Positions 21,281 to 31,224 of a stretch of 64,000 nucleotides of DNA are shown here, piece by piece. The notes under the pieces were generated by a model. The model was not told the DNA's origin. It ran no database searches and saw only the letters and a program-made list of their open reading frames with translations. Positions within the stretch are counted from its first letter, which is position 1. Every line of letters begins with the position of its first letter. The translations under genes were made by a program, and so were the position numbers. Where the stretch lies: positions 186,001 through 250,000 of the forward strand of contig JADNYJ010000017.1 in assembly GCA_015501075.1 (NCBI GenBank), read 5' to 3'. Source of the stretch: Gymnopilus junonius. Taxonomy: Eukaryota > Basidiomycota > Agaricomycetes > Agaricales > Galerinaceae.

Positions 21281-22262
21281 CTATTCTAAGGGATAGAACT
21301 CTATGCCTAGAGCCTGTCTGTGTTTAAGGAACAGGGTAGGGCCTAGATTTTTGGTGAACATATCAGCAACATTCTTGTCCATAGGGACATGTTCTATTTT
21401 AATGTTCCCAAGTTCTATTTGTTCCTGGATATAGTGGTAGCATATTTCAATGTGCTTTATCCCTTTTTGAGTGATGGGATTTTGTGAGTTAAAAATAGCT
21501 CCATGACTATCTCCATATAAGGGAATGTATGGGATTGACATCCTGAGTTCTTGAAATAGAATCTTGAACCATGCACAGTCACATGCACAGTCAGAGAGTG
21601 CCATGTATTCTGCCATAGTGGAAGACATTGATACTAGAGTCTGCATCTTGGAGTGCCATTTGATACTCCCGCTCACAAGGGAAAAGAAGAATCCCTGCAT
21701 AGATCTACATTTGCAATCTGGCTCTGTTCTGTCATCACCATATGAGGCATCACAGTAGGCATAAAGGCCTGTATCACTGTTTCCATTGAACACAAGTGCA
21801 TAATTGCACATACCATTTAGATAGCGCATAATGTATTTAGCACAGTTCAGATGTTCATCAGATGGGTTTGCAGTGAACTTAGCCATCTGTGTGACAGTGA
21901 AGGCTATATTGGGTCATGTTCCTAGCATTAAATATAGCAGGGAACTGATCACTGATTGATATTCCAACTGAAGTAAAGCTGAACTTGTACCTGTAAAGGG
22001 TTCTGGCTTGTACCCAGTAGGTAATGGAGTCTGTGCCGCTTTCGCATTCATCATTCCAAAGTGAGTGAGAATCTTATTAAGGTATGGCATTTGATCAATA
22101 TAGGTCTTGCCTTTTATGTACCTGATTCTCATGCAGAGAAACTCCTGACATATGCCTAAGTCACAACATTCCCATGCAGTCATGAAGAGCTGCTTTTTTT
22201 GTCAGACTAATTCAGCACTGGGACCTGGGATGATGATATCATCAACATATGCCAATATAATG
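21281..22262 (-). pseudogene. Copia pol 3' part: RT end and RNase H
   Basis: From the right, the RT catalytic box AYVDDIIIPGP (22249-22238) is followed by FLCMRIRYIKGKTYIDQM and the RT thumb region, then RNase H (MRYLNGMCNYALVFNG, YAYCDASYGDDRTEPDC, VSMSSTMAEYMALSD, KHIEICYHYIQEQI, DMFTKNLG) ending at 21281. The RecQ/DUF6589 transposon inserted only about 14 bp upstream of the YVDD codons. The rest of RT lies at 30092 and beyond. Confidence 0.85.
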
Positions 22263-22269
22263 ACAAGGG

Positions 22270-22474
22270 TTAGACTGGTGACCATCCGTCGAATGAGGTG
22301 TCGAGTGAACAGAGAACCTCGATTACAACGACTGGTACAGCTGAGTTTGAATTAGCAGGAAATCAATGATGATCGAGTTTTGACAGCTGGAACATTCTTA
22401 AGAAAGTCCAAATTGAGCGAATGCCTTATGGGGTACATTCCCAGTGTTCCGTAAATTTAAAAATAGATCCTGCC
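22270..22474. repeat. Left terminal inverted repeat of the RecQ/DUF6589 transposon
   Basis: Pairs with 29880-30084 in reverse complement. Shared blocks include TTAGACTGG, AGAGAACC, GGTACAGCTGAGTTTGAATT, AGCAGGAAATC, CTTAAGAA and GTAAATTTAAAAATAGA. Overall roughly 75-80% identical by eye, with the inner and outermost blocks best conserved. Confidence 0.8.
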
Positions 22475-23405
22475 ATTTCTTTCTCTCTCTCCCACATCAC
22501 GTCGTGTCCTCCCCCTTCCCTGTCGTGTCCTCCCTTGCAATGGACATGGTCCCTGGTCTGAAAACTCATCTCGAAGTGCTCAGAACATGTTCTGCTACAT
22601 GCTTGGACCAATTCATATGTGATTTCTCGCTGGAGGCTGATGATAGGATACCAAGGACTTTTCTGAATGGACTGAAGGACTCGGACGAGCTTGTCTGCTG
22701 GCGAGCGATTCTTATGTGCTACAAGGTCACTCAGGGCCAGCAAATACCTCGAGAAATGCAACTTCATGCTGTGCTGGCAGATTTTCATCATCTCGATTCT
22801 CTTATTTCTGCTGGGACTGGTTCTGGGAAGACACTGCCGACTGCTCTTAAGATTCTCTTGGACAATCCTGCTGATAATTTGGTGACAATAACACTATCTC
22901 CCTTGAAGCGCCTTCAAGTCACCCAAGAAAATGATTTTAATTCACGATATGGAATTCACACAGTAGTCATCAATGAGGATACCCCTCGCCATGAGGCATG
23001 GTGGGATGTAAGTTCATACAATACTTCTTTGGTATAGGCCGTAATTCTTCTCAGAAAAATATCTTCAACTGAAAACATGAATACCTGGGCTGGCTTGCCA
23101 TCTTATTGTTACCGTGGAACAGTTATTCAAGTCCCGAGAAGGGCATTTGCCTCGTCTTGGCATCCTGCTCCCAATAGTCACTTTCAACATCGAGTTATCC
23201 ACATTATTGTTGATGAAGCCCACAACATACACTTTGCTGGACTTTCTCAATATGGCCTTGATGCATTCTGACTGGCCTGGGGACGACTCGACGAGCTTAA
23301 GGCTATTCTCCTCCAAATGACTTGCTGGTGTGCGTGCTTGGCTACTTTTACACCCCTTGCTCTCCAGACTGTTCAAAACAAGGTCTTGCACTCAAATTAT
23401 GTCTA

Positions 23406-24998
23406 CAGTGAGGGACAAAACTGTTCCAATGTTTCAAGCATCTACAATAAAACAGGAATACCTTGGGAACTAAGAAAGGTGGAACCTTGAAATTTTAAAC
23501 CTAGGTAGCCCTGGATATCATCTATCCAAACATATACAAATCATTATGTAATCATGTTCTTTTCCCACACTACAAATCATTTAAAATAATAGGTACATTG
23601 GAATGGTTTTGTCCCTCTTGAAGATTATATACTATTTAGGGTATTTAGTACTCAGTATAGCCTCCCTTGGCCTTTGCAACAGCTGCAACCCTCCTTGGCA
23701 TACTTTCTATCAAATTCTGACATACAGAAGCTGGAATTTCATTCCACACTTTCTGTGTCCTCTCCCAAAGTTCTGCTATGCTAGAAGGCTGGGTTTCATA
23801 CTCTGCAAGCCTAGCCTTGAGGTAAACCCAAAGGTGTTCAATTGGGTTGAGGTCTGCTGATTGAGGTGGCCATATCATAACTTCCAAACACTGTCTTCTA
23901 GCCACTTCATTGCCTTTTTACTCTTGTGCTTGGGGTCATTGTCTTGCTGAAAAATGACATCTTCAGGTTTCTTGTTGAAATATTCCAGGCTTTGCTGGAG
24001 TTCCTCTTCCAAATAGACACATAAAGGTCAGCATCCATCCTCCCATCAATCTTGGTGCCATATCCAACTCCTTCCCAAAACATACAGCCCCAAAACATCA
24101 AGTTTCCTCCTGCAAACTTTACTGTGCCTTTCACCAGCCTATCAGAAAGTGCTTCTCCTGGCATTTTCCACACCCATTTCCTCCCATCTGATCCCAAATG
24201 ATTGACTTTGGTCTCATCTGTGTAAACCACCCTCTTCCAGTCCTCAACAGTCCAGTGAAGGTGAGCCATTGCAAAGTCCATACATTCCCTTCTATGTTGT
24301 TTGGAGAGAAAAGGCCTTTTTTTCTTGACAACAGCCTTTAATCCTGTGGCCTGAAGTGCCCTGCAGACTGTCTTTGATGAGAGAGGCTCATTGGTAATGT
24401 CTTTCAAGGTTTTGGCAACCTCAACAGCATTTTCAGTCTTGCGAAAAGTGATAAGGCATAGAGCATATTGGACATTGGATGGTGAAAGTTTCTTTGGACA
24501 GCCACCAGTGGACTTGGCAAGATCAGGACAGTATTTGGTGTGAATCCTGGATATAGAAGTCATAGAAACACCAGTGGTTGCTTCAATTTGGTGAGCAGAA
24601 TGTCCTTGATTAAGAAGATGAATAATGTGGGTGCGTTGGGCAACAGTAAGTCAGTGCATGGTGAAATAATGAGTGGGGGGAAGTTATGAGCAATGTACAA
24701 GAGTATATATACTCTTTGCAATTCACTCACATGATTTTATTTGCTGTTATTTGTCTGTAATCAACAAAGTCAGGTGATTTGACTGAGAGGGACAAAACCA
24801 TTCCAATGTACCTATTATTTTAAATGATTTGTAGTGTGGGAAAAGAACATGATTACATAATGATTTGTATATTTTTGGATAGATGATATCCAGGGCTACC
24901 TAGGTTTAAAATTTCAAGGTTCCACCTTTCTTAGTTCCCAAGTTATTCCTGTTTTATTGTAGATGCTTGAAACATTGGAACGGTTTTGTCCCTCACTG
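23406..24998 (-). mobile_element. Tc1/mariner element with long terminal inverted repeats
   Basis: 1593 bp, flanked by TA (23404-23405 and 24999-25000). Ends CAGTGAGGGACAAAACTGTT and its complement; the inverted repeats extend about 215 bp inward (to about 23625 and from about 24785). Inserted in the helicase gene of the RecQ/DUF6589 transposon. Confidence 0.95.
23645..24659 (-). pseudogene. Tc1 transposase (DD34E family), frameshifted
   Basis: Start ATG at 24659, followed by a TGA at codon 3 (arginine position). N-terminal paired-like helix-turn-helix (THIIHLLNQGHSAHQIEATT, then SISRIHTKY), second HTH near SSKTVCRALQATGLK. Catalytic domain: first Asp in VYTDETKVNHLGSDG, second Asp in FQQDNDPKHKSKKA, Glu in SADLNPIEHLW; spacing fits DD34E. 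The three parts lie in different frames: one shift near 24010 (before the second Asp) and another near 23890, so no active protein is made. About 340 residues is the usual Tc1 length. Confidence 0.9.
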
Positions 24999-26281
24999 TA
25001 TATTCATGTCACCTCAAACCATCCCAATATGACATATGCAATGCATGAAGTTGTCAATGGCATTGATGACTTATGCAATTATCAGTGCTTTCTCATGTCT
25101 CCATTTCACCCTGCTCTCCAGCCTCGTGTCCTCATCTTCATCGATAACAAGAAACTCGCTGCTCGAATTTCCTCTCATCTTGACTTATGCCTGGCTCCAA
25201 CTCTTCAAAACAAAGGTATCATTGTTCATTACCACAGCAAAATGTCCGAGAAATACCTTCAAATCGCTCATGACTCTTTCATCCGAGAGGATGGTGTATG
25301 CCGGATAATGGTTGCAACGTCTGCCCAATCAGTGGTGAGATTTTCATTCTGAAGTTAAGTACTCTATTTTGTTGAAAGGTTTGCAGGGCATTGACTTTCT
25401 GAACATGAAGATTGTTTGCACTGTTGGCCTTCCATCAACAACAACTGATACCCTCCAGCGTGGGGGGTGTGCATTCCAAAGCTCTAACGAAGATGCACTC
25501 TTTGTTATGTTCCACGAGCCCTGGGTACACGAAATCAGTCTTGACGACTTTCAGAACTTTGATGCAGCTGATCTTGACTGCCCTCGTGTGCCCCTCAAAG
25601 CAAATTCTCAGTGGTGAGAGCATGCCCCATTCTATAGTGTCAAGATCACCCAAGAATGCTTATGCATCCAAAAGGGATTTTCAACCTACCTCGGTGATGA
25701 ATCGATGGACAGTGCAGCATATATTATACTCATGATCTGACTCTGCAAATTGATTACTTACTCAGCACTGCTTCATTCAATGATATTCTGCTGTGATTCA
25801 CCAGACCATTCTGGTGGTGCCATTTTTCACTTGCAAGACTTTCTTCCCGGCACTATATTTGTTGAAGCGCCTCCTGACAACGCAACTGACAATGCACCCC
25901 ACAAGCAAAAAACAACCTGCTAAAGTGTATTGCCCAGTGAAAGATTGACACCCGCTCGACTTCCGTCTAATTCAATTCCTTGAGCATGAAGATGCTTCTG
26001 ATCCACTTCGTGCATTTTGACTGCCATATTTCATCTTGTCTGATACTCAATGCATGAAACTTGTTTGTGCTCACCCAAAGGAAATCAAGTCTGCAGAGGA
26101 TGTACAACACATTCTCAAAGAGAGCGATCAGTGGTGGCTGAAATGGGGGGAGAAAATATATACCATAGTTATGGAGTATGAGCAGGACTTGGCTACGCTG
26201 AAGACTCGGAGCCAGACAAAAAAATGTATGGTTACACTTCCTCAGGCGAAGAGGCCAAAGAATTAGCAACAAAATACATAA

Positions 26282-29200
26282 TTATTCTGTATCCTCATGC
26301 AACGCAGATTCCTCTCCAGCCTCAAACTCATCTTCTCCATCAGCAAAATTTGTAGTGAGCCTGATTGGTGCAATGTCGTCGACTTCATAGTCAGGAGGAA
26401 TGCCATCCTTTGATTCTTGGATCTTTTTGTTGAAGGCAGCAAGTGTGGATGATTCAAATTTCTTGTAACCCACATTATGCACGTCAATGACTGCCTTGAC
26501 CTTGTCACCATCTATTCGGCTTGGAGTCCAGGTCTGTAAGCCTGTGTCATGGACCTTTTTGGCAATTTCCATGCAAGTACACCATCATTAGCATATTTAT
26601 GTGAGTGGCTTTTATACCTGGCATCAGTTGATTTTGCGACCTGTCTCTTAATTGTTTGGAGATGTGGGATCGCAGCAGAAATGTTTCCGAAATGGTCCCA
26701 GTTGGAATAGACACCCTTTGCAACAAATAAGCGCTGTCAAGGAAGTTATTTAATCTTCAATTCATGTGCTGAAATCATATATATGACATACCTTTAGGTA
26801 CCCAATAAGATGCTCGATGTTCAAATCCATTGCCATAGCATGTCCAGGCAACCCGGAAATATTGACCAGCATGTTATCACACATAATGTTCCTGTTCCTC
26901 ATTGTCAGTGTTAGACGCTACACAGATAAGGCAGTGTGATGAACGTGAATTCAGGTGTCCAGACATTTTTGATATTATGTAGGAGATGAAGGATCTCTGT
27001 TGAGTAGTTATTGGAGCCAGCACCATGGAACATGCATGCTAAAGTTGGAAGCATATCCTCCACATGGCCAAAGTTGCCAGTCTGAATTGCATTCACAAGC
27101 TCAATAACATTGAGAAAGTCCCGAGTAAGTAAAACCACATTCTCATGAGCAGCATCAGATTTTGGGATAGTCTTATCAGGAGTTGGGCCTGACATGCTGG
27201 GCTCCGTATCAGGCTCGCCTTCGCTTTCAGAGCTACTGCTATTAGAGTTATTGCTGTTCATGTCCAAATTCTTGAGGGGGACTTTTGGATTGCTGGGAGG
27301 AAATATACACTTGGGAATGGCATATTTCTGTGTAATCTCTCATGCTTTGTGCAGAATAGACTCCAGACTAGGATCTGTTGCCACAAATTCATGTAACTGT
27401 CCACACTCCTGCTGCCATGCATTCAGGATAAGTCCTTCAAGAATCTGGGTTAACGCAGTAAGCAAGGTGTGATAGTCAGGGTGGTCAGAACCAAGTCGAG
27501 TCTTCTCCATAATAGAAAAGAAGTATGCAAGACTACCAGCTTGCTGGACGGTACCACAATGAATAGAAAGTATGCTCCATATCAGGTTCATAACAAGATG
27601 GAAAGTCCCAAAGGCCAACTGGAAAATTTCACGTCGTTCCCAGGCAGACACATTTTTGCGACGCTGATCCTGTGCTCCACGAATCCGGGCATTGGTCAAC
27701 TGATCATTGATGCATGGTATCACCCTTTTGTTTAGATTCTCTGGATCCATGTCAAGCTGAACAGTATAGATATCATTGTGTATTGCAAGATTTCCATCAA
27801 CGCTTGCTTCTTCAATGGTCATTGCTCGAAGTGGATAGAACTTGGTCTTATGACCAATTGGAATTGTGCGCCATGGGGGATGTTGAAACAGAGGGCTATC
27901 TTTCAGTTGCTCAAAACCATTGACATGTTTGAAGAGAATATTGCAGATATTAATTACCGTCTGATTCACATATGATTGGAGAGCATCATCAGTGGGACAC
28001 ACATCCTCAAGTGTCATGGGCAAAGACTTTTTAAAGTTTTCAAGCATCAGTTTGATGTCCATATCCTCTGGTCAAGCATTCAAAAGCTCATAAACAACTG
28101 CAAATGTTCCAGACTGAACTTTGTTCGGCATTCCAGGCTTCTGCTCAACAAAGATAGATGTCAAAATATTGATGTTATCATAAGCCAGTGCATGAGGTCC
28201 AGATGCAGCCTTTTGAGCCTTTTCAATGGCGCTATCAGCAAGTGAAGTGACAATAGAGTTTATGCTAGAGTACGACATGGAGAGGCAAGAGTGGTGGAGC
28301 ACCATCATGACCTCTTTCGAAGCGCCGGAAGCCCATGCAGCTAGTCCAAGACCTACTTGGACTTTGCTTGATTTGAGTGAGCAAAGAAAATGGATGCCTG
28401 CATGAAGGATATACATTCCCTGGGTTTAAGCAAGGTTTAAGTTAGCCTTTACTTTAATTTATGTGGTCAGTTACCTTTTTGCGATTCTTAGATTTGGCAG
28501 CCTTGACCTTTTGCTTCGAAATTTTTGATTCGGCTGCTGCTTCAAAGACCATGGAGAAGGTCGGCATATTTTGAACTATTGGTTCCATTATCTTTTCGAG
28601 ATCCCAGTTGTCAATGAAGTCAGCAGTGACATCTTTTGAAGTCATAGTAAGATGAGGCTTGACCGCCTCCATCTCTCGGTGAATTTCCTCACAAACTAAA
28701 TCAATTGATCATGGCAGAAGAAATTGGGCTTTATATCAGTGCAATTTTCATCATCAAAAATCCCTGCCAAGACCTCTTGAAGAAGAATTGATTTTTTGAT
28801 GAGAAGACCACCTTTCGTTGTGATGCAAAGCCACCTTCTCCAGAGAGTGTGAATTTGAGGAGGTCAAGGACATTCAATCTCACTTCTTGTAGAAGTTTAA
28901 GCACCTGCAATGTGGTGCCAATCTTGGTAACTTTTGGTTTTATCAGCCTTGGAATATAGTTAGGGCAGTCACTCGACTCAGTCTTGATTTGGTCAAGGGA
29001 TGAGGTAGAAGTAAAAGGACTGTTGTATAAAAGGTTGCTGACAGGATCAATGGTGAGAGACTTGGAGGAGAGTTGTATGAATCAGCACTAGGAAGAGGAG
29101 ATATCGAGATCGCTCTGAAGCTTGAACCGACTGCCAAGAAAGGGACATGGATTCAGGAGAAGCGACAGCTCAAAAGGACACAAGGCAGGTGAAGCATCAT

Positions 29201-29420
29201 TATCAAAGGAGGTGAGGGGAGAATCGTCATGGGCACTTATATCTTTGCATGCAAAAAAAGAATGCAGGTGCACTTTGGTCATTGGAGTTGAGCGATAAGA
29301 GGTACCTCCTAAATTAAGCACTTCAAAGAAATGTGAGGGCATGCTCGGCTCAGTAAAGTTGCCAGGCTGTCCCAGAGTTTGATTGTATGGGCTTGCAAAA
29401 GGGTAGTTGTTTGTTCTCAA
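26282..29420 (-). pseudogene. DUF6589-like gene of the RecQ/DUF6589 transposon
   Basis: Multi-exon gene on the minus strand. A region starting near 29420 may encode the N-terminus (low support). 28672-28480 encodes MEAVKPHLTMTSKDVTADF with a Lys-rich end (KVKAAKSKNRKK); a GTAACT...CCCAG intron leads to 28416-27340. The core reads INDQLTNARIRGAQDQRRKN, SAWERREIFQLAFGTFHLVM, EKTRLGSDHPDYHTLL and LILNAWQQECGQLHEF, which I recognise as DUF6589-like from memory. Later exons hold LACMFHGAGSNNYSTEIL (near 27000), DNMLVNISGLPGHAMAMDLN and IEHLIGYLK (26895-26790), and a C-terminus ending at 26282. In-frame TGA codons near 28069 and 27344 fit arginine positions. The conserved Asp in NDQLT, Glu in AWERREIF and acidic/His residues could be a nuclease site (inference). 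It ends 15 bp from the convergent helicase gene. Confidence 0.7.
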
Positions 29421-29879
29421 GGTACTTTTAGTGTAATAAGAAAGAACAGTGTAAGCAAATGAATTACGATCAAGAAAAACCTCAAGTACTCATTGGCATA
29501 AGTATTCCTACGGTGTCCCAAGTCCAGACTCTGCCTCCCTTCGATGTCCCAGACACAAATTCACCACTGCTCCTATGTCCCAACACATTGGATGTTGCTG
29601 GTTTGATGGAGAAACATGAAAGACAAGGGATCTGTTTGCGAAACTGTGAGGCTCCACGCAATTCCACGGTATGCTGGAGGCATGCTGATGTTGGTGTCGT
29701 GGCTCAGGAGCTGGAGTACCATCTGCTGTAAAAGCAGCAAAAAGTGGCGAGGATTGGTAGGATCTTGTGCATCAGGTACAGGACTGACAGAAAAATGCGA
29801 AATTGCCATAGGAAGGTGCAGGCATGGTGGCGAATAAGAGAACGTGAGGCAATGCGGAGAAAAAAATGACAGGCTCTAT

Positions 29880-30084
29880 TTTTAAATTTACAGATCAGCA
29901 GTCACCTTCCTTACAGAGCAGTCACTCAAGATGGAAATTCTTAAGAACGATCCAGCCATCAAGACATGCCAAAACTTGATCATCATCGATTTCCTGCTAA
30001 TTCAAACTCAGCTGTACCGGTTGTCATATTGAGGGTTCTCTGCTTGCCTCGTCAACCTCATACGATGGGTGGTTACCAGTCTAA
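29880..30084. repeat. Right terminal inverted repeat of the RecQ/DUF6589 transposon
   Basis: Reverse complement of 22270-22474. The outer end is CCAGTCTAA at 30076-30084, followed by the target duplication ACAAGGG. Confidence 0.8.
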
Positions 30085-30091
30085 ACAAGGG

Positions 30092-31224
30092 TCTCATTAC
30101 TATGTCTTGTGACAAAGATACCAGCATCGGCATATAGGCATGTGAAACCAAGCTCTTTAAGGGAGCAATCAAGTTCAGTCCACCATGCATGTGCAGCTTG
30201 CTTAAGCCCATAGATAGCTTTGAGCAGGTGGAGTACTTTCTTCTCCTGTCCCTTTATGGTAAAGCCATCAGGCTGTTCCACGTATATCTCCTCATCAAGC
30301 TTCCCATATAGGAAGGCTGATTTGACATCAAGGGACTCAATTTGCTATTTCTCAAGAGCTGCTAAGACTAAGATAGTGCAGACTGACTCAAACTGGACAA
30401 CCAGTGAGAAGATCTCATCGTATCTAGGCCTTCAATTTGGGAAAATCCCTTGGCAACTAGACAGGCTTTTTTACATCCATCAGACTTAATATTGAAAACC
30501 CAATGATTTTTGATGGCCTTTTGGCCTGGAGGTAGGTCAGAGAGCTCATAAATGAAAAGTTTATGAAGGGCCTCTAATTCTTTGAATTGAGCCTCATGCC
30601 ATTCCTGTTGTTGATCAGCAGATAGCCATCTAAGATCTTTACTAGTCCAATTTTGGATGTTCCATGGATCTGGAAGTGCACTATCAGAAATTGCCTTAGA
30701 AAGTAAATAGGCATGCCAATGTGCTCCCCCTTCTGCTCCCATATTAGGATTGTATGGGTACTCAACCATGTGGTCACTAGAGGCCATAGACAAATTTGGA
30801 GCAGATCCAGTTATGTCTAATCTGCATCAGTGATCTCTATCAGTGGCTGTACCAGGAGGGTATATGTTCCCTTCTTTTTGCATACTTTTACTCTCATGAG
30901 TGCTCCTTCTTGGAGCATCATCAGCAGCTCCCCCTGATGGACTGGCACAGGGTTTCCGCAGTGCAGGTGGTGGGAGATTAGATCCTTGCCTAGGAGTAGA
31001 AGGCATACTGGGACCAGTAACTGCTGGTGACTTGGGAGGTGGAGTCCTGGGTGGCTTGTCATCATGAGGTCCCTCAGGCTCACTTGATGGATTATTTGGG
31101 GGTGGCCTATAGGATGGTTCATCACCATCATGAGAATCACTATCCTCCACTTCCAAGACAGGTTCCTCCAGGGAGGTGCACTTACATATTTGGATAAGCA
31201 GTGGTACTTTAGCCTTTTGGCATT
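30092..31224 (-). pseudogene. Copia pol: region between integrase and RT, and RT N-terminal half
   Basis: From the right: SKCQKAKVPLLIQ, then a Pro/Ser-rich linker (SYRPPPNNPSSEPEGP, TPPPKSPAVTGPSMPSTP), then RT (WLSADQQQEWHEAQFKELEA, AIKNHWVFNIKSDGCKKA, LVAKGFSQ, KVLHLLKAIYGLKQAAHAWW, ELGFTCLYADAGIFV) up to HSNETLV where the RecQ/DUF6589 transposon enters. Several frameshifts and stops. The pogo-like element (from 31227) separates it from the integrase part. Confidence 0.8.

Follow-up and report, generated by a model that had tools for sequence, protein, structure and literature searches.

A fungal transposon that pairs a helicase gene with a candidate DUF6589 transposase gene and resembles AcademH

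The AcademH DNA transposons were reportedly described by Kojima in 2020. Target duplications differ between transposon groups: Kolobok elements duplicate TTAA, hAT elements duplicate 8 bp and MULEs usually combine long inverted repeats with a 9-bp duplication. The nuclease of AcademX is of the XPG type. As described in excerpts of the literature, Academ carries a RecQ helicase (PMC3627910), AcademH combines a helicase with a 9- or 10-bp target duplication, and AcademX has a nuclease instead of the helicase and a duplication of 3 or 4 bp, a difference in length suggested to be tied to helicase versus nuclease (PMC10045372). AcademH has been reported from Basidiomycota among others (excerpt of PMC10799480), and KolobokH is described as a fungal DNA transposon whose RecQ helicase lies downstream of the transposase domain (excerpt of PMC9587614), a combination of host and helicase that it shares with the element described here. 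DUF6589 was not found named as a transposase in the open-access literature searched, which is weak evidence of absence as the key AcademH paper lies outside it.

Movement of the window element as a single unit

We analyzed a 64,000-nucleotide stretch of Gymnopilus junonius DNA (the window), which lies within contig C79 of the searched genome (58 Mb, 898 contigs). The first-pass annotation had placed a transposon with precise ends here. Its boundaries were confirmed, although both lie one base further inside: because other copies in the genome begin TAGAC, the element runs from TAGAC at 22271 to GTCTA at 30083.

22271..30083, no strand: whole transposon, 7,813 bp, TAGACTGG at both ends
22262..22270, no strand: left target-site duplication, GACAAGGGT
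30084..30092, no strand: right target-site duplication, AACAAGGGT, differing from the empty sites at one base
22271..22485, + strand: left terminal inverted repeat; 13 matches in the genome search, the window's own two ends among them
29857..30083, − strand: right terminal inverted repeat; 16 matches in the genome search, the window's own two ends among them

The imperfect inverted repeats begin with TAGACTGG and have the ~200-bp length previously proposed. On each side they comprise three stretches of arms, of which the outermost (22270–22299/30055–30084) are 87% complementary, the middle (22310–22385/29967–30042) 86% and the innermost (22377–22485/29857–29965) 73%. The target duplication, earlier given as 7–8 bp, proved on comparison with other copies to be 9 bp, GACAAGGGT versus AACAAGGGT, with eight of nine bases identical. 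Besides the window, 39 copia relatives were listed and seven were fetched; all seven contain the uninterrupted site with a single GACAAGGGT, so it is the right-hand AACAAGGGT that has changed. When the flanks were joined (240 + 240 bases), one copia reverse-transcriptase frame continued through the junction. The proposed restoration of this frame upon removal of the element is thus borne out across the junction, but one stop lies in the left flank, 23 codons away. The empty sites, the duplication and further copies sharing the ends show that the transposon moved as a single unit.

Related copies and their ends

With both inverted repeats as queries, 13 loci of the window's family (family 1) were collected, nine of them two-ended; the other four (C312, C99, C834 and C667:19249), in which a single end or an unresolved end was seen, were dropped before counting. 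Ends and duplication are not confined to the window, as six of the nine two-ended copies have a perfect 9-bp duplication without extension to 10 bp. The window copy matches at 8 of 9 bp, and the duplication is absent in the other two, which are 109-bp copies with a common right flank. The first-pass annotation had anticipated many copies with both genes between such repeats; further copies with 9-bp duplications were indeed recovered, but the eight other two-ended ones are short (105 bp to 1.56 kb) and gave no DUF6589 match. All five of the longer short copies retain the initial portion of the helicase gene (71–82% protein identity). These short copies look like internal-deletion derivatives and were presumably mobilized in trans.

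A sister family (family 2) is represented by loci on C885, C211 and C330, in which helicase and DUF6589 genes are convergent as in the window. These loci are ~99% alike across 7–8 kb, flanks included, and may therefore be a single insertion that was duplicated or is seen as haplotypes. The right end of these loci was found at 13 further places (72–80% identity), of which nine were examined, leaving aside C47, C376 and two places on C223; eight two-ended copies were counted, the left end of the C157 copy lying outside the fetched stretch. Perfect 10-bp duplications flank all eight short copies, each with the terminal sequences TAGGCTC...GAGACTA. The left ends of all eight are identical over 100 bp, as are three right ends for which 225 bp were compared, which points to recent movement of this sister family in the Gymnopilus junonius genome. 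The 940-bp copy on C837, the sole one read throughout, carries a trace of the transposase start at its left (50% over 32 aa, 3e-6) and a reversed trace of the helicase start at its right (30% over 50 aa, 0.002), remnants as expected for internal deletion of a two-gene element. The short copies on C25, C68, C311, C334, C372, C445, C667 and C837 appear to form a recently active non-autonomous family; no close autonomous partner was seen for them, the gene-bearing loci having a right end of just ~73% similarity.

The ends of family 1 are partly palindromic, and the corresponding regions of the window copy are as follows.

22274..22336, + strand: imperfect palindrome within the left end, weak in the window copy
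30016..30080, − strand: corresponding palindrome region of the right end, which does not fold in the window copy

Within the first 80 bases, fold-back was detected at the four ends of two family-1 short copies (z −4.6 to −2.8) and at the two ends of locus L044 (z −3.0 and −2.8), and was weak or absent at the ends of the young family-2 copy on C837 (z −1.3 and −1.0) and of the window copy (z −0.8 and +0.7). L044 also contains a stretch of ~0.77 kb (347–1117), bounded by 44-bp inverted ends, that is missing from L047. Across 10 distinct ends of the 13 from family 1, 90.9% of cells pair in the palindrome. A covariation score of 0.191 and eight cells with two-sided change were each reached in 0 of 500 shuffles, 13 further pair types in 32 of 500, and four pairs changed on both sides were equalled in 88 of 500, counts that are inflated because the structure was drawn from the same ends and the ends are related. 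A role of the palindromes, be it as a double-stranded site for a dimer or as a structure meant for the helicase, is a lead only.

The DUF6589 and helicase genes

As the first-pass annotation had it, the window element contains two convergent genes, a helicase gene on the + strand and a DUF6589 gene on the − strand.

26515..28425, − strand: transposase core of the DUF6589 gene (PF20231), split into pieces and carrying two in-frame TGA codons (28072–28074 and 27340–27342)
28177–28179 (D), 27703–27705 (D) and 26813–26815 (E), − strand: candidate catalytic residues of DUF6589
27598–27600, − strand: conserved H of DUF6589
28457..29489, − strand: open stretches that may be upstream exons or the 5′ portion of the DUF6589 gene
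22528..25614, + strand: helicase gene, broken by an insert, RecQ-like through its relatives
from 22810 (AGTGSGKT), 23212 (DEAH) and 25456 (QRGG), + strand: helicase motifs, which we take to be the ATP-binding motif, the DEAH box and a motif VI-like element
23406..24998, − strand: Tc1/mariner-like insert in the helicase gene, 1,593 bp, TA duplication, HTH_Tnp_Tc3_2 domain

The DUF6589 gene matches PF20231 with an E value of 2.4e-48. Since the Pfam model begins after the first catalytic Asp, annotation by Pfam alone loses part of the active site. In the comparison with RNase H-fold transposases proposed earlier, the structure model (pLDDT 84) has an RNase H fold of the DDE transposase type, and the nearest solved folds are those of Hermes, which is the closest, the P element and ISCth4. 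In an alignment of 58 chosen rows (A3), the D, D and E are near-invariant; in P0118 of Lyophyllum atratum, an intact homologue, they are D264, D432 and E673. The predicted fold and the conserved triad make it very likely that DUF6589 is the transposase of the element, as had been suggested. The model shares with Hermes, a hAT transposase, the RNase H core and a long helical insertion that precedes the final catalytic E, but the two are 8–9% identical, DUF6589 has no hAT Pfam domain and the duplication lengths differ.

The first-pass annotation had called the helicase RecQ. A DEAD/DEAH-type helicase is indeed encoded on the + strand, but the RecQ label reaches the window gene indirectly, through relatives. 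Its Pfam DEAD match lies just under the cut-off (1.2e-05), the best PDB match of one piece is the RNA helicase DDX52 (0.0022) and the C-terminal piece gave no PDB match. The best protein relatives of the pieces are P0193 (45% over 65 aa, 2e-8) and P0146 (38% over 89 aa, 6e-8), the latter assigned to the RecQ family by NCBIfam (8e-44). By sequence, the family-2 gene is RecQ-type: it has DEAD and Helicase_C domains, and its PDB matches are WRN, RecQ and BLM (6e-19 and weaker). A mussel protein (P0196, Mytilus trossulus; 29% identity), possibly from an animal element, is one of the distant helicase matches.

The inverted arms of the Tc1/mariner-like insert (~215 bp) are 99% complementary. With this insert in the helicase gene and two in-frame TGA codons in DUF6589, the window copy looks dead, and is very likely inactive and decayed.

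Relation to AcademH and role of the helicase

We consider it highly probable that the element is a two-gene, cut-and-paste-type transposon of the AcademH kind, with DUF6589 as its DDE transposase and the helicase as a dedicated partner. By published description in the excerpts available, AcademH resembles the window element and family 2 in having a helicase, a DDE-type transposase and a 9- or 10-bp duplication. Here, a helicase is present in the window and at four other linked loci, the duplication is 9 bp in family 1 and 10 bp in family 2, and a DDD/E transposase is predicted from the RNase H fold and the near-invariant D, D and E. Whether the element belongs to AcademH had been left open in the first-pass annotation; the helicase and the 9- and 10-bp duplications in two families, which match the description in the excerpted sources (PMC10045372 and PMC3627910), lean towards AcademH. 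The element type is thus probably a known one, its membership in Academ being what we infer. AcademX, the same superfamily if the AcademH assignment holds, differs by its nuclease and by a 3–4-bp duplication, and was rejected on the 9 or 10 bp found here. No XPG-type nuclease was seen in the ten window pieces scanned; at E ≤ 0.1, these pieces matched DUF6589, DEAD, the Tc3 domain of the insert and, weakly, Cauli_VI (0.044) only.

A bolder reading, which we regard as doubtful, is that PF20231 constitutes a large unrecognized family of helicase-partnered DDE transposases, within Academ or as its own superfamily, in which palindromic ends are kept by compensatory change and the helicase acts on folded-out ends during synapsis or strand transfer, setting the 9- or 10-bp spacing. 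It is unlikely that DUF6589 elements are a separate DDE superfamily with helicase and duplications that are merely AcademH-like. AcademH was compared by description alone and the nearest solved folds are the three named above, which would suit such a superfamily, but two independent features, the helicase and the duplications of 9 or 10 bp, fit AcademH as described in the excerpts.

The partnership of the two genes was assessed by their linkage. DUF6589 matches lie on 10 contigs, and longer stretches were read for seven. At five of these seven loci (about three independent families) the helicase and DUF6589 genes form a convergent pair, and in each of the five, where both genes were placed, the helicase reads towards the transposase gene. 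The DUF6589 loci on C9 and C801 have no clear helicase, and no helicase match was obtained in the ~3.2 kb checked on each of C790, C590 and C544. The protein listings used comprised the best 120 of 211 and the best 120 of 300, the latter being the relatives of the family-2 helicase. Among these best 120 of 300, 19 of the 52 closest helicases (P0141–P0192), versus 0 of the 68 more distant RecQs, are on contigs equal in size to DUF6589-bearing contigs, a proxy for linkage in fungi; we placed the split between P0192 and P0193 at a score drop, and P0193 and P0194, fungal proteins and the best relatives of two window helicase pieces, landed in the control group. Twelve of the 19 contigs are under 20 kb. 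Gene numbers are consecutive in the pairs EUX98_g9506/9507 (4,696-bp contig) and MD484_g8897/8898 (12,307-bp contig), and not consecutive in an Ephemerocybe pair on a 503-kb contig. The partnership suggested earlier is supported by both counts, which also make it very unlikely that the helicase was captured from the host or is a passenger that plays no part in movement. Such a passenger would be consistent with the two loci lacking a clear helicase, with a helicase relative on C690 whose contig has no DUF6589 match, and with the movement of short copies that themselves lack a complete helicase gene, although the helicase could act in trans. The C690 relative (L043, 174804–174965) is 37–40% identical to the window helicase. 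On C9 (L049), 69-bp inverted arms (90%; 1156–1224/7212–7280) surround a heavily decayed DUF6589 gene with 15 TGA codons; no duplication is recognizable and the reversed helicase is a weak trace (E = 0.15).

That the element is a MULE or a hAT transposon whose transposase is atypical is scarcely credible: long inverted repeats with a 9-bp duplication are usual in MULEs and the DUF6589 fold is nearest to that of Hermes, but no MULE or hAT domain was detected in the ten window pieces (E ≤ 0.1) or in five full-length DUF6589 homologues (E ≤ 0.5), and the duplications are 9 or 10 bp. KolobokH, fungal and RecQ-bearing as it is described, is the least credible candidate of all, as the duplications here measure 9 or 10 bp instead of being TTAA, and the helicase has its own gene on the opposite strand and does not lie downstream of the transposase domain.

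For the preferred AcademH-like element, the catalytic activity of DUF6589 and the step of the helicase are proposed as follows. The transposase would bind the long inverted repeats with their terminal TAG, cut the element ends and join them to target positions separated by 9 bp (10 bp for family 2). The helicase would most likely unwind or reshape DNA at the ends or joints, perhaps opening the former or resolving the latter, and the partly palindromic ends may serve as its substrate.

PF20231, to which Pfam assigns no function and which is common among the mushroom proteins recovered, thereby gains a testable role, that of a transposase for which three residues are named, as well as a usual helicase partner. 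If DUF6589 is AcademH, many mushroom 'hypothetical proteins' and 'RecQ helicases' would be transposon genes, and the helicase-assisted DDE transposase would become directly testable. TGA stops are numerous in decayed DUF6589 copies, perhaps owing to CpG mutation in transposons; the CpG observed/expected ratio is 0.44 in the window element with the insert removed and 0.52 in the window.
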